Assembly (NCBI RefSeq): GCF_004851605.1
Contig: NZ_CP031093.1
Span: 992,001-1,056,000, forward strand
Origin: Hydrocarboniclastica marina
GTDB lineage: Bacteria > Pseudomonadota > Gammaproteobacteria > Pseudomonadales > Oleiphilaceae
Reading direction: 5' to 3'
DNA length: 64,000 bases
The position numbers were made by a program, and so were the translations under genes. Below the pieces are notes generated by a model. It had not been told where the DNA came from. It did no database searches and saw only the letters and a program-made list of their open reading frames with translations. Below, in pieces: positions 4,106 through 11,615 of this stretch (position 1 is the first letter of the stretch; each line of letters opens with the position of its first letter).

Positions 4106-5194
4106 CTAGTTTCTGGCAGGCCCGGGGGCCAGGTGAGTCTCGCGCGCTGCAAACGCGATCAGATGGTCAGCCTCTAGCCTGATACCGATGTACTGGTCGA
4201 CCTGAAAATCCAGGTGGCTTCTGAACAGAGCCTCTATCTCCGCACCGGACGCCAGTTGGAGTCTGTAAAGGGTAGACGTGCCGGCAAACGTCTTTTCGAC
4301 AATGCGTAGCTGGAGATCGGAGCGCGGGTCATGGACAACATCATCCGGGCGCACCAGAAAGTCGACGGGCGTGCCACGCGCCCAGCCATAAGCGCGGTTA
4401 CCCCGGATTACGCCTAGTTCGCACTCGATCGCATCCGGTGACATCATTTGGCCCCGAACGAAACAGCCCTGGCCCACGAAGCTTGCCACAAAACGGTTGG
4501 CCGGCTCGTGATAGAGGTTGTAAGGACTATCCCACTGCTGCATCTGGCCGTCCCTGAGCACGGCGATCTGGTCACACATGGCGAACGCTTCCTGCTGATC
4601 ATGCGTAACCAGAATGGCGCTCAGCCCTCTTTTTTTCAGGAGATCCCGCACATCAATGCTGAGCCGCCGTCGGAGGTCAGCGTCAAGACTGGAAAAAGGT
4701 TCGTCCAACAGGATGAGGTCGGGTGATGGCGCCATTGCCCGGGCTAAAGCAACTCGCTGCTGCTGTCCGCCGGAAAGATTTGTGGGCAGACAGTCAGCCA
4801 TATCCTGGAGCGATATGAGTTCAAGCATTTCCTGGACGGTTTGCTGGCGTTGCTGGCGGCTGAGGCGGTGAAGTCCGAAACCGATATTCTCGGCAATGCT
4901 CAGGTGGGGGAAGAGTGCATAGTCCTGAAACACCATGCCCACGCCCCTGTTCTCGGGCGCTACAAGCCGTTCTCGGGTGCTGAGCACGTTGCCCCGCAAT
5001 TTGATCTGGCCGGTCATGGGTGGAATGAAGCCGGCCAGCGCCCGCAGGACAGTGCTCTTACCGCAGCCACTCGGGCCCAGCAGGCAGCCAATCTCCCCCT
5101 CTGCCAAAGCCAGGTTGAGCGAATGAACAACCGCGCTTCCGTCGTAACCACAGCTGAGTTCCGAAACTTCCAGAATCCACGTACTCATATTCAA
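4106..5194 (-). CDS. ABC transporter ATP-binding protein, FbpC/PotA-like
   Basis: 362 residues with Walker A (GPSGCGKST, 40-48), Q-loop Q90, signature LSGGQ (140-144), Walker B ending in the catalytic Glu (ILLDEP, 161-166) and the H-loop LVTHDQ. The last 120 residues form a TOBE-like regulatory region, the layout of iron(III) and polyamine importers. The ATG overlaps the argF stop by 4 bp, so translation is probably coupled. No permease or binding protein lies nearby, so its substrate cannot be named. I recall an ATPase beside argF in Pseudomonas as well, which suggests an old association. Confidence 0.88.
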
Positions 5195-6102
5195 ACGCCT
5201 GGCAGCAGCAAGAACTCGAGTAGCGCTTTCTGTGCATGAAGCCGGTTTTCGGCTTCATCCCATACTACGGCGCTCCGGTGCTCCAGCATGTCTGCAGATA
5301 TCTCTTCTCCCCGGTGGGCCGGAAGGCAGTGCATGAACAGTGCGTCTTTGTCCGCGAGTTGCATCAGGGCGGGGTTTACCTGGTAAGGAGCGAATGCTTT
5401 CAGACGGGCACCCTGTTCGTCCTCTTGTCCCATGGAAGCCCATACGTCCGTCGCGATCAGGTGCGCGCCAGAGACCGCCTCTTCCGGGTTGCTGAACACC
5501 TGTACCCGGTCGCCATGTGCATTCAGGAGGGCTGGGTCAGGTTCATAGCCGGCCGGGCAGGCGACCGCCAGCTGGAAATCAAATTGTTCGGCCGCCATGA
5601 TGTAGGAGTGACACATGTTGTTGCCGTCGCCAACCCAGGCTACGCGGGCGCCTTTGATCGAGCCGCGGTGCTCCCGCCACGTCTGCATATCCGCGAGCAG
5701 CTGGCAGGGGTGAAAGTCATCAGTCAGCGCGTTTATGACGGGAACCCGACTATAGTGCGCGAAGGTTTCGACGATCTTGTGTTCGAATGTCCGGATCATG
5801 ACCCCATCCGCCATCCGCGAAATGACCCTGGCGCTGTCCTCGACAGGCTCTCCACGGCCGAGCTGGGTATCACGGGGGGACAGGAACAATGCAGACCCGC
5901 CGAGTTGAGCCATGCCCGCTTCAAAGGAAACGCGTGTCCTGGTCGATGATTTTTCGAAAATCATGGCCAGCACGCGGTTCTTGAGGCTATCGCGTACGAC
6001 ACCCGACTGATGGGATTTTTTAAGCGCTATCGCATGATCGAGGAGATCGCTCAGCTCCGTCGGCGAGAGATCTGCCAGAGTCAAAAAATGTCGAACGGCC
6101 AT
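5191..6102 (-). CDS. argF: Ornithine carbamoyltransferase
   Basis: 303 residues, the usual length. Makes citrulline from ornithine and carbamoyl phosphate in arginine synthesis, in the cytoplasm as a trimer. The carbamoyl-phosphate loop STRTR is at 53-57, the HPCQ motif at 131-134, and the ornithine-binding HCLPAHRG starts at 258. All catalytic residues are present, so this copy should be active. It lies 49 bp downstream of an ArgD-like gene and overlaps the next gene by 4 bp; the three probably form one transcript. Confidence 0.97.
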
Positions 6103-6151
6103 TGCCAGGCATCCTGTTGAATCATGGAATAGGTTTTGAGAGATGGGCCTA

Positions 6152-7294
6152 CTAGCGGCGGGGACGCTTGCGCTCGTCCGCCATGTAGAGTTTGATCAGC
6201 CGGATAAGACGCATAGCCATGTCGTCCGCCTCGGAATCGGTCATGGTCAGGGCGGGCAGCAGACGGATGACTCGTTCAGCGGTCACGCTGATAAGCATAC
6301 CCTGGGTTTTAGCCAGGAGAGCGAGTTCCGGACAGGGCTCCTGGAGCTCGATACCAATGATCAGCCCCAGGCTGCGGATCTCCCGGACGTAGTAGGCGCC
6401 CTCCAGGTAATCCCGCATGGGCTCCATCACACGCTTGCTCAAGGCCCGCGCCCGGGCAACCAGGTGGTCATTCTCCAGCGCGCTTATCACAGCAAGCGCA
6501 GCCGCGCAGCCGAGGGGGTTCCCGCCAACCGTTGAGGCGTGGGCTGAGCCGAAGAATACCTCTGCAGCTTCGCCGCGGGTCAGGCAGGCCGAAATCGGGA
6601 AGCCATTGCCCAGGCCACGCGCGAGCGTCAGCACGTCGGGTAAGACACTGTATTGCTGACAAGCAAAGAACGACCCGGTCCGGCCGATACCGCTCTGTGT
6701 TTCGTCGAGTATCAGCAGCCAGCCCTGGTCCCGGCAGATATCCTGCACGGCCTTGAGGTACGCAGGCTCGGCGATGACCGTGCCAGCGTCTCCCTGGATG
6801 GTTTCCAGCATGATCGCAGCCACGTCCTGCCGGGTCGCCGCTAGCTCCCGGATTGCTTCGATGTCGTTGAAGGGAACGCTGGCGAACGCATCGGGCGAGG
6901 ATCCGCGCTGCTCATTCCCGGCCACCAAAATGGCCGGGTTCGTGATCCCCTTTTGCAGACCGAACTGACGGGCTATTCTGATGGCGCTGTCATTTGCTTC
7001 TGCACCAGAATGCGCAAACAGCGCCCCTTCCATTCCTGCCAAGTCGCTCAGCTTCGTTGCCAGAGCCCGCTGAGATGCGCACTGGAGAGGGCTCGCGCAA
7101 TAGGTCAACTCGCCTGCCTGATGGGCCAGAGCCTCCTGCACGCCTGCATGCGCATGACCCAGCCCGCATTCACCAGACCCTGCAGAGGTATCGAGATAAC
7201 GATTACCCTGGGTGTCGTAGAGCCAGATCCCGTCTCCGCGCTCGACGCTGAGAGACAGACGACCGGAAGAGTTGAATAGCGGATGCTCCGCCAT
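6152..7294 (-). CDS. ArgD-family class III aminotransferase homologue lacking the catalytic lysine
   Basis: 380 residues, aligned end to end with acetylornithine aminotransferases: SGAEAN (96-101), the pyridine-nitrogen Asp197 ([11 protein letters not shown]), a STVGGNP loop and the carboxylate-binding Arg in VIRLLPAL. Two essentials are missing. The PLP-binding lysine of the 'AKGLGNG' motif is Arg226 (codon CGT at 6617-6619). The stretch between LVAG and VPFND is about 19 residues shorter than in E. coli ArgD and lacks the FHGR motif that stacks on PLP. Good ribosome site (aggaa, 7 bp before ATG). It heads the argF operon. Predicted catalytically dead; it may sense or scaffold, or have a new activity. 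The frame is intact. Confidence 0.85.
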
Positions 7295-7810
7295 GGCGGT
7301 TCCTTAAACCTCGGTACAGAAGGTACCGGCGCTAACGAAAAAAGGCAGCATCTGACGACACGCTCCGGTTCGCGAATGGCCCGCGGGGCAATAACGCGAC
7401 ATCGGACCCGTCTCGGGGTGTGCTGCCTTGACCTGATCAGTTTATCGGGTGCCTTTCGAGGTGCGCCCTTGCGCCGCCAGACACCGGCCGGTTCATCCAG
7501 ACCCACCAGTACGCCTGCAAAACGCGACAAAACGATGAAGCGGGCTGGGAGATCTGTCAGTGGCGTTCCTGATCGCCGAGATCTGGCTCGGCTAGTTCGC
7601 TATGTTAGCGGTAAAGGTTGTTGATGACAACGCGTCAGCGGCTCGCGGCGAGGGCTGAAAGTGCAGTTGTGGCGTCGGCAAAACCGGGCATCAGGCGGCC
7701 AGGATAAAACCCGACTAACGTAGTCAGGAATAGCCTCGCTGTGTAAAATAGACGCCATCGAGACCGGGCATACGAGGCCCGGCGGCGCATCCCGACCCGG
7801 AGGATATTCG
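7295..7810. other. 516-bp divergent intergenic region, argD-like / grxD
   Basis: No gene recognised. The open frame at 7283-7624 has no family look and no good ribosome site. A distant inverted pair, ggcagca near 7345 and tgctgcc near 7423, brackets about 70 bp and could loop out. I looked for Pseudomonas-type arginine-regulator sites (TGTCGC-N8-AA); one TGTCGC occurs on the minus strand near 7525 but lacks the AA. The right end holds the grxD promoter. Confidence 0.5.
7721..7749 (+). promoter_or_regulatory. Candidate sigma-70 promoter of grxD
   Basis: TAGTCA (7721-7726) and TAAAAT (7744-7749) are separated by 17 bp, about 60 bp before the grxD start. The -35 matches TTGACA at four of six positions and the -10 matches TATAAT at five of six. 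Confidence 0.4.
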
Positions 7811-8155
7811 ATGGACATTAACGAGACAATCAAGCAGCAGTTGGATAGCAACCCCATTCTGCTTTATATGAAAGGCAGCCCCCAGGCTCCCCAATGCGGG
7901 TTTTCCGCTCGGACAGTGCAGTCCCTCATGGCGTGTGGCGAGCGCTTCGCCTTCGTCAACATCCTGGATAACCAGGAGTTGCGCGAAGGCCTCAAGGTCT
8001 ACTCGAACTGGCCTACCTTTCCCCAGCTCTACATTAATGGCGAGCTGGTTGGCGGCTGTGACATCGTTAACGAGATGTACGAGAGTGGCGAGTTGGAGAA
8101 GCTGGTGAAAGACGCTTCAGCTTCGGCAAACACCACCTCTGACCAAAAAGCCTGA
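7811..8155 (+). CDS. grxD: Monothiol glutaredoxin Grx4
   Basis: 114 residues, typical for the family. The single active cysteine is C29 in the CGFS motif, and FPQLYINGELVGGCDI is the glutathione-binding part. CGFS glutaredoxins bind a shared [2Fe-2S] cluster with glutathione and act in iron-sulfur trafficking rather than disulfide reduction. The ATG is preceded by ggaggat. It is a single-gene unit, convergent with the TonB-like gene; a strong hairpin follows. Confidence 0.95.
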   Translation: MDINETIKQQLDSNPILLYMKGSPQAPQCGFSARTVQSLMACGERFAFVNILDNQELREGLKVYSNWPTFPQLYINGELVGGCDIVNEMYESGELEKLVKDASASANTTSDQKA

Positions 8156-9220: not shown

Positions 9221-11395
9221 TTACCCGGCTTTCCGGCGCAGGCTGCCCACCACAGAGTCCAGTGCGCGATCAATCAGTGCGCCTTGCTCAAGCACTGTCA
9301 GTCGCCCCCGACGCATATCATGGGCGAGATCGAGTCGCTTTTTCTCGACCACTTTGAGCCCCATCCGGTTTACGAAGACGTAGCTGTCAGCTTCTTCGAT
9401 GATGGCCGAGAGCTTGCATCGGAAACGGGTGCCATTGACCAGGCTGAATTCAACCCAGGTTCCGGCGCCAATGCCCTCTACAGCGAGCATGTGCTCGGCC
9501 ATGGCAGCATTCTCGAGCTCTTGCTCCCGCTCGACCGCTGTCTGTATGCCACTGGCGACGGGTGGCGGAGGCGCCATCGCAGGAGAGCTGTCTTCCGACG
9601 CTTCCTCCAGAGCCTGTCGCCGAAATGCTTCAGCCAATTCTCGCTTTAGGCCTAGCATCATCTCATCAAGACGGGCGGCGTTGTAAGAAACCTCTTCCAG
9701 TCCGGCCCTTAGTGTTTTCAGCAGAGAAGGCACCAACCGGACCCATTGCGCACGGTCGTCTTCGTGGGGCTGAGGCTTTAGACACCAGAGCAGGTCATCA
9801 ACGACCCGTACTGTTTGCGTCCATCGGTGCTCGTTGTCGTCCCGCAGGTAAGCCAGGAACATAACCCGGCTCCAGCCATTCTGAAGTATGTTGCGGATGC
9901 TGTCGGGAAGCGCCCGCATACGCATCTTCTCGTTCAGAACACGGTCAACGGTCTCCTGGGCCTTCTGCGACTTTATGCGACCTCGCTCGGACTCTCGGGT
10001 TCGCTGCTCTACCAGGGTGGCCTTGCGGTTCTCCCGAGCCAGGAACCGGTCGAACTCTTCGTTAAGCGATTCAAAGATAGCGATATCGCCGTCGTACTCT
10101 TCCAGAATTCTTTGCACGATCGTGTGTATCTGTTCGTAAAGTTTGTCGCGGTTTTTTTCATTGCTGTCGCTCCAGCCAATCCCTGCCCGGGCTAGTGCAT
10201 TGAGCAGGCGTCTCGCTGGATGCGTTGCTTTGCTGAAGAAACTGCGGTCTTTAATGACAACCTTCAGAATAGGAATCTGAAGGCGGCTGATCAGAACCTG
10301 AATGGGAGGCGAAAGGTTGTAGTCCTCCAGAATGAACTCAAACAGCATCGAAACCAGATTGATCAGATCTTCGTCGACTTCGTCTATCGCTGTGCGCTCG
10401 CCGTTGCTGCCTTTTTGCTCTGACAGTAACTCTCCCACGACCTGGCGTAGATCCAGGGCAACAGGTTGTCCCACCGTGAGGTCTGCGGTCGTCGGCTGGG
10501 CAGGTATTCGTGCGAGCAGAGAGAAGAGTTCGTTGTCGCTGATCAGTCTCGCGCCCGATCCGGCGGGGGCGCTCAGGCGGTGATCGCCGGTTCTGGCCAG
10601 CAACTGCCTGATAACGGCAAACGAACCTTCCTCCTCTTCGCCAGCAAATCCCGGCTCGCTGACGGCGTGACCCGTGTTGCCTGGGCTGGTTGCGGATGCG
10701 CCAGTTTTGCCCCGGTACTTGAAGTTGGGAACAATGCCGCTCTGAATCAGAATCCTGTTTGCCTCATCCAGGATCATTCCCAGATTGGCAATTACATAGC
10801 GATCAAACTGCTTGAGCACTATGAGGCGCTCACGAATCTGGATATCCAGATCGGCGATAGACTCAACAAGTGCGGCGCATAGATGCTCAGGGGAGAGCGG
10901 ATTTACAGGTTCGGACTCGGGGCGGCCGTACAAGACCGAAAAGCGGACCTGTAACTGAAGCAGTGTGCCCTGGAAGTGCGCCTTGGCCTTGGAGACCATG
11001 GCGTTTATCGCGACTTCCTGCTCCAGCACGTCGTTATTCACCAGGGACAGGCTCTCTGCAGTGAGCGATTCTCCGGCTGGTGTGCGGGCTGAACTTGGGC
11101 TGGGCGGGGTGTCAAAGAGATTGAAAAGGGCTTCCTGAAAGCGCTTCTCCACCCCTTTACGTTTAATCCTGACCTCGCGCATCGCCTCAAAGAAGCGATT
11201 CTGCTCATTGTTGCTGCGGGCATTGTTGGCCAGTTCAAAAAGAGAGTCATCGACTGAGTCGAAGGTTCCCTGCAAGAGATCCGACAAGCCGGCGGTAACC
11301 ACCTCCCTGATATTCTGAACTTCCTTCATAGCGGTACCGCGACGTCCAGAAGTGGCCTGGCCATGAAGGTAATGTATGCCGGACTGGTTAGTCAT
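9221..11395 (-). CDS. DUF1631 family protein
   Basis: 724 residues from ATG 11395 (cggag 7 bp upstream); a longer TTG start at 11422 is less likely. I recognise the DUF1631 layout: a long helical body with conserved blocks such as ISRLQIPILKVVIKDRSFFSKATHPARRLLN and ending in a small beta domain (WVEFSLVNGTRFRCKLSAI, YVFVNRMGLKV) that resembles a PilZ fold. The family is common in Pseudomonas-like bacteria and its function is unknown to me; a link to cyclic-di-GMP is only suggested by the PilZ-like tail. No signal peptide or membrane helix, so cytoplasmic. Confidence 0.82.
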   Translation of the reverse strand: MTNQSGIHYLHGQATSGRRGTAMKEVQNIREVVTAGLSDLLQGTFDSVDDSLFELANNARSNNEQNRFFEAMREVRIKRKGVEKRFQEALFNLFDTPPSPSSARTPAGESLTAESLSLVNNDVLEQEVAINAMVSKAKAHFQGTLLQLQVRFSVLYGRPESEPVNPLSPEHLCAALVESIADLDIQIRERLIVLKQFDRYVIANLGMILDEANRILIQSGIVPNFKYRGKTGASATSPGNTGHAVSEPGFAGEEEEGSFAVIRQLLARTGDHRLSAPAGSGARLISDNELFSLLARIPAQPTTADLTVGQPVALDLRQVVGELLSEQKGSNGERTAIDEVDEDLINLVSMLFEFILEDYNLSPPIQVLISRLQIPILKVVIKDRSFFSKATHPARRLLNALARAGIGWSDSNEKNRDKLYEQIHTIVQRILEEYDGDIAIFESLNEEFDRFLARENRKATLVEQRTRESERGRIKSQKAQETVDRVLNEKMRMRALPDSIRNILQNGWSRVMFLAYLRDDNEHRWTQTVRVVDDLLWCLKPQPHEDDRAQWVRLVPSLLKTLRAGLEEVSYNAARLDEMMLGLKRELAEAFRRQALEEASEDSSPAMAPPPPVASGIQTAVEREQELENAAMAEHMLAVEGIGAGTWVEFSLVNGTRFRCKLSAIIEEADSYVFVNRMGLKVVEKKRLDLAHDMRRGRLTVLEQGALIDRALDSVVGSLRRKAG

Positions 11396-11615
11396 GACCA
11401 ACTCCGCGTCTTTATACTGCAACTAGGCGTGAGCCGAATGATAACGGTTATTTTATTATGGATCTGTAATTAATTGTACGGGCTGGCCAGCCAAATAACA
11501 AAATTTAAGCGATTTTGATATGCCGAATTAATAAGCAGGCCTCAGTCCGGAGAGGTCAGCGTCTGGCTGGTCCGTGCCAGGAGCAAGGCGAGCCAGCGCT
11601 GAATCTTGCCAGGTT

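Follow-up and report, generated by a model that had tools for sequence, protein, structure and literature searches.

The 380-residue ArgD-family protein encoded upstream of argF in the analysed window (the whole stretch of DNA considered here, 64,000 nucleotides) carries an arginine in place of the PLP lysine and lacks the loop with the FHGRT motif. Most likely it is a catalytically dead, lineage-specific ArgD whose frame has stayed open for a protein able to fold, and which is probably made and partly under selection, a reading to which we give a probability of about 0.52. The finding overall is real but modest. The features on which it rests are the following.

7811–8155, plus strand: grxD-like glutaredoxin gene, divergent upstream neighbour and conserved synteny marker
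7301–7305, minus strand: AAGGA, ribosome-binding-like site six bases 5' of the ATG, read directly
6152–7294, minus strand: ArgD-family protein without PLP lysine, 380 amino acids (open reading frame, family profiles and alignment)
6992–7009, minus strand: kept SGAEAN, residues 96–101, PLP phosphate binding in relatives (read in the sequence)
6922–6923, minus strand: junction of the 15-residue loss, V124/A125, where a relative has ENAFHGRTLATLTAT (orthologue alignment)
6892–6911, minus strand: two further two-residue losses, E128/Q129 and P134/D135, with the lowest model confidence at residues 129–133 (alignment and model)
6695–6706, minus strand: kept DETQ, residues 197–200, third position V or I changed to T (V/I199T; alignment)
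6617–6619, minus strand: codon 226, read as CGT (Arg), where all 86 homologues from the order have the PLP lysine
6515–6532, minus strand: kept TVGGNP loop, GGNP being residues 257–260 (alignment)
6263–6265, minus strand: kept C-terminal arginine R344 (read in the sequence)
5191–6102, minus strand: argF, for an ornithine carbamoyltransferase of normal type, with a single change in 134 near-invariant columns
4106–5194, minus strand: ABC transporter ATPase gene after argF, conserved synteny marker

Active-site residues, family and fold

In all of the alignments Arg226 falls on the PLP lysine, which bears out the replacement that the first-pass annotation had read from the CGT codon. These alignments covered the PDB sequences 8ht2 and 2eh6, 39 argF-linked orthologues (33 from the family and six from other families of the order) and 86 homologues from the order, 48 of them outside the family and the 39 orthologues included. 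The lysine and HGR are retained in all 86 homologues, and the lysine and FHGRT in all 39 orthologues. A stand-in lysine was sought within the protein, but residues 181 to 287 contain none and therefore none can substitute for the PLP lysine; a PLP lysine elsewhere in the protein, which the annotation had named as grounds for abandoning its reading, thus did not appear in that stretch. The annotation had also reported about 19 lost residues including the PLP-stacking FHGR motif. Compared with the orthologues 19 residues are indeed missing, distributed over three gaps of 15, two and two residues, and the largest gap takes out FHGRT, so that both the PLP-stacking phenylalanine and the substrate arginine are gone. 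In AstC the FHGR arginine is Arg141, by which the substrate is held (PMC3590144). Of the fold markers that had been listed as kept, SGAEAN, DETQ and GGNP are present, while the carboxylate arginine is only half so, R344 being retained and the FHGR arginine lost. D197, Q200 and T255 are retained as well, and the TVGGNP loop reaches the active site of the neighbouring subunit in AstC (Thr281'; PMC3590144). Further changes at conserved sites are Y10S, I40S, V42E, N95H, P165T, E169D, V/I199T and N203I, and several of the first seven are, by motif, probably active-site positions. Judged from these residues, it is near certain that the argF-linked ArgD would have lost catalysis. Sequencing error was considered and rejected, since the change from lysine to CGT takes three base changes and the losses are all in frame.

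The protein clearly remains within the class III aminotransferases, scoring 283.7 bits against PF00202 (cut-off 30.5). Its best NCBIfam model is ArgD TIGR00707, where it reaches 311.6 bits and stays below the curated cut-off of 410; the PLP lysine and the FHGR motif expected of that family are missing as well. An AlphaFold2 model built from a 42-sequence alignment, a lenient procedure when an alignment is supplied, has a pLDDT of 90.6, with the minimum at residues 129–133 by the deletion, and the PDB entries closest to it are structures of acetylornithine aminotransferases, with a TM of 0.91 to 2ord. The model thus shows that the sequence is still predicted to fit the ArgD fold, actual folding being a separate matter.

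Whether the double loss is shared was assessed among relatives, 39 of 163 family genomes having a strong match (the window's own genome among these 39). Across 80 loci of relatives the double loss was not found: 79 reach the lysine position and all have K there, and one (L084) ends before it. The nearest relatives belong to other genera and are 54–56% identical to the protein, compared with about 70% among themselves, and the genus is represented by one genome only. Absence of the change from all close relatives, which had been put forward as a sign of sequencing error or decay, is what was found, but with the nearest sequences in other genera at about 55% identity it is not decisive. The loss of the lysine and of FHGRT is real and, from these alignments, specific to this lineage. 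A class III aminotransferase homologue from Marinilabiliaceae (L089:4001-5110) lacks FHGR (NSYLSAYGLGK) and keeps the lysine, which amounts to half of the double loss.

Locus history and the second enzyme

The frame at 6152–7294 starts with ATG and is open over all 380 codons without an internal stop, and a gap of 49 bp (6103–6151) separates it from argF on the same strand. Direct reading of the sequence agrees here with the annotation, which had described an intact frame, a good ribosome site and a normal argF 49 bp downstream. A search of the 49-bp gap revealed no terminator-like site and, as both genes lie on the same strand, co-transcription of the argD-like gene and argF is likely. Sites resembling an ArgR-type box (TGTCGC-N8-AA) were no commoner than by chance. 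Elsewhere in the window (9221–11422) a long 733-residue open reading frame adjoins a TonB-like one.

The order grxD, argD-argF, ABC ATPase is the same in relatives as in the window, and argD-argF occurs across family and order with an intact, lysine-bearing ArgD; the position is therefore inherited. On this comparison the adjacency to argF is ancestral and provides no evidence for a scaffold, sensor or regulator, and the suggestion that a place next to argF points to such a role for ArgF is left unsupported. Eleven genomes of the family, spread over the three genera g12, g15 and g3, lack the gene at the locus and have argF directly beside grxD. Since other members of all three genera retain the argF-linked argD, the gene has probably been lost repeatedly in the family. 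In two g12 genomes (G181 and G075, loci L142 and L143) argF lies beside grxD and an ArgD homologue of the argF-linked type is found away from argF, possibly by reacquisition or by a move.

The annotation had proposed a search of the genome for another intact argD, and an intact AruC/AstC-type enzyme was found at C1:3021878. It scores above the curated cut-offs of both the AstC and the ArgD models, 3 of its 131 invariant columns are altered, and the gene that follows it reads as astA-type. The genome also contains argC, therefore the acetylated pathway exists. As this AruC passes the ArgD models and as ArgD and AstC are interchangeable in E. coli (PMC3590144), the argF-linked copy would be redundant with it. 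A second OTC-like gene (L145, G000 C1:3374957) is 37% identical to the ArgF of the window and possibly catabolic.

Constraint on the open frame and competing readings

The terminal branch of the argF-linked ArgD is about three times as long as those of the other two genes compared, at 0.72 against 0.23 for argF and 0.26 for AruC of the same genome. The protein is altered at 27 of 85 strictly invariant columns, whereas the orthologue that comes next in this respect is altered at 8 of 93. Of the always-hydrophobic columns, 9 of 95 have turned polar or to proline (0–1 in eight relatives tried). Codon-position GC is of the coding-gene type. In a neutral simulation the probability of no stop was 0.14 after 60 amino-acid changes and 0.02 after 100. 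The differences exceed expectation by only some 55 residues, an excess that on its own would leave the frame open in roughly one case out of seven, so that the open frame by itself is weak evidence against neutral decay. The lysine codon went from AAG to CGT at all three bases, for which the shortest route takes one replacement followed by two silent changes. Under neutral point mutation, the joint probability of AAG becoming CGT or CGC and of no stop arising does not exceed about 4e-6 at the divergences tried, a figure for which the codon was picked once its change had been seen and mutations of several bases were ignored.

Constraint is also uneven along the protein. Sites identical in eight near relatives are altered at 54 of 146 positions in residues 1–260 and at 7 of 47 in residues 261–380 (Fisher p 0.004, with the split at residue 260 picked after regional identities had been seen), and columns invariant in all 39 orthologues show the same trend without significance (p 0.17). 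Changes at conserved sites lean conservative, with a mean BLOSUM62 of 0.0 against an expected -0.51 (p 0.035). In codon models of branch omega, branch lengths were at the bound and synonymous sites saturated, so that only a fixed omega of 1 was rejected, over a whole branch that includes the functional past of the gene.

Taken together, the open frame, the fully changed lysine codon and the near-normal rate of residues 261–380 suggest that pure neutral decay fits poorly, and to this extent the earlier view that simple decay is unlikely stands. It does not extend to a passing relic, which is a serious rival given the absence of the gene elsewhere and the redundancy with AruC. Perhaps the redundant argD is no longer selected and is in early decay, its frame open by chance or after recent relaxation, with deletion to come as in the members of the three genera where argF was left beside grxD. 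The long branch, the many altered conserved sites including nine columns of buried type, and the occurrence of the change in this genome alone all agree with such a fate, whereas indels that are in frame without exception, a lysine codon replaced at three bases, a C-terminal third that is nearly normal and the conservative lean of the changes at conserved sites do not, so that we consider it possible, though doubtful. An improbable variant is that the protein has no function and that only the frame is selected, as stops or frameshifts would lower the expression of argF. The short, terminator-free gap and the likely co-transcription would allow this, but constraint should then be lost evenly, contrary to the better-kept C-terminal third, and argF of relatives stands without an upstream argD.

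Continued enzyme activity, either lysine-independent or with an altered use of PLP, can hardly be expected. SGAEAN, D197, Q200, T255 and R344 are retained, and lysine-free PLP-fold enzymes with another residue exist in other families, such as ColD with histidine. However, the stacking phenylalanine and the substrate arginine are deleted, other residues stand where relatives have Tyr10, Ile40 and Glu169, and no case of arginine forming the PLP Schiff base is known in such enzymes. A kept, non-catalytic protein is thus somewhat favoured over these readings. The gene would be the lineage's own ancestral argF-linked argD, made redundant where the AruC/AstC-type enzyme covers the acetylornithine step. 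Catalysis would then have been lost through the change of the PLP lysine to arginine, the deletion of the FHGRT loop and changes in other substrate contacts, and we infer that the dead ArgD is still made and partly selected for some structural or regulatory role. Counting against a kept protein are the single genome of the genus, in which persistence over speciation is unseen, the dispensability of the gene elsewhere and the nine broken hydrophobic columns.

Meaning and comparison with known systems

The locus is a clear example from nature of an enzyme of primary metabolism that has lost its cofactor lysine and substrate loop with its frame still open; the intact paralogue indicates why the loss could happen, and the clean absence in sister genera represents the other fate of such a gene. 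Similarity-based annotation would label the protein an acetylornithine aminotransferase, and it should not be counted as such in pathway models. No precedent for an ArgD pseudoenzyme was found in the literature searched, where the one match deals with Bacillus PLP proteins and has as its pseudoenzyme PDX1.2, named in the title of a reference. If kept by selection, the protein would be an ArgD-type pseudoenzyme new to that literature.

The argF-linked ArgD (acetylornithine aminotransferase) of the family and order shares the locus order, the fold and a C-terminal DDRxRPR-like tail with the protein of the window, at an identity of at most 56%, but keeps the PLP lysine, the FHGRT loop and several substrate contacts that are lost only in the latter. 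AruC/AstC of the same genome shares the class III fold at 34% identity and differs in being intact and above both the AstC and ArgD cut-offs, the latter of which the window's protein does not reach. Eukaryotic serine palmitoyltransferase has a lysine-free subunit, SPT1/LCB1, which is, like the window's protein, a PLP-fold homologue without the lysine and naturally forms a pair with a paralogue that is active (PMC6148460). By analogy, the dead ArgD could be a non-catalytic partner that pairs for instance with AruC as SPT1 does with SPT2, its TVGGNP loop and C-terminal domain completing or controlling the active site of the partner, although this is a long shot. SPT1/LCB1 belongs to another PLP subfamily, and its pairing is a demonstrated one.
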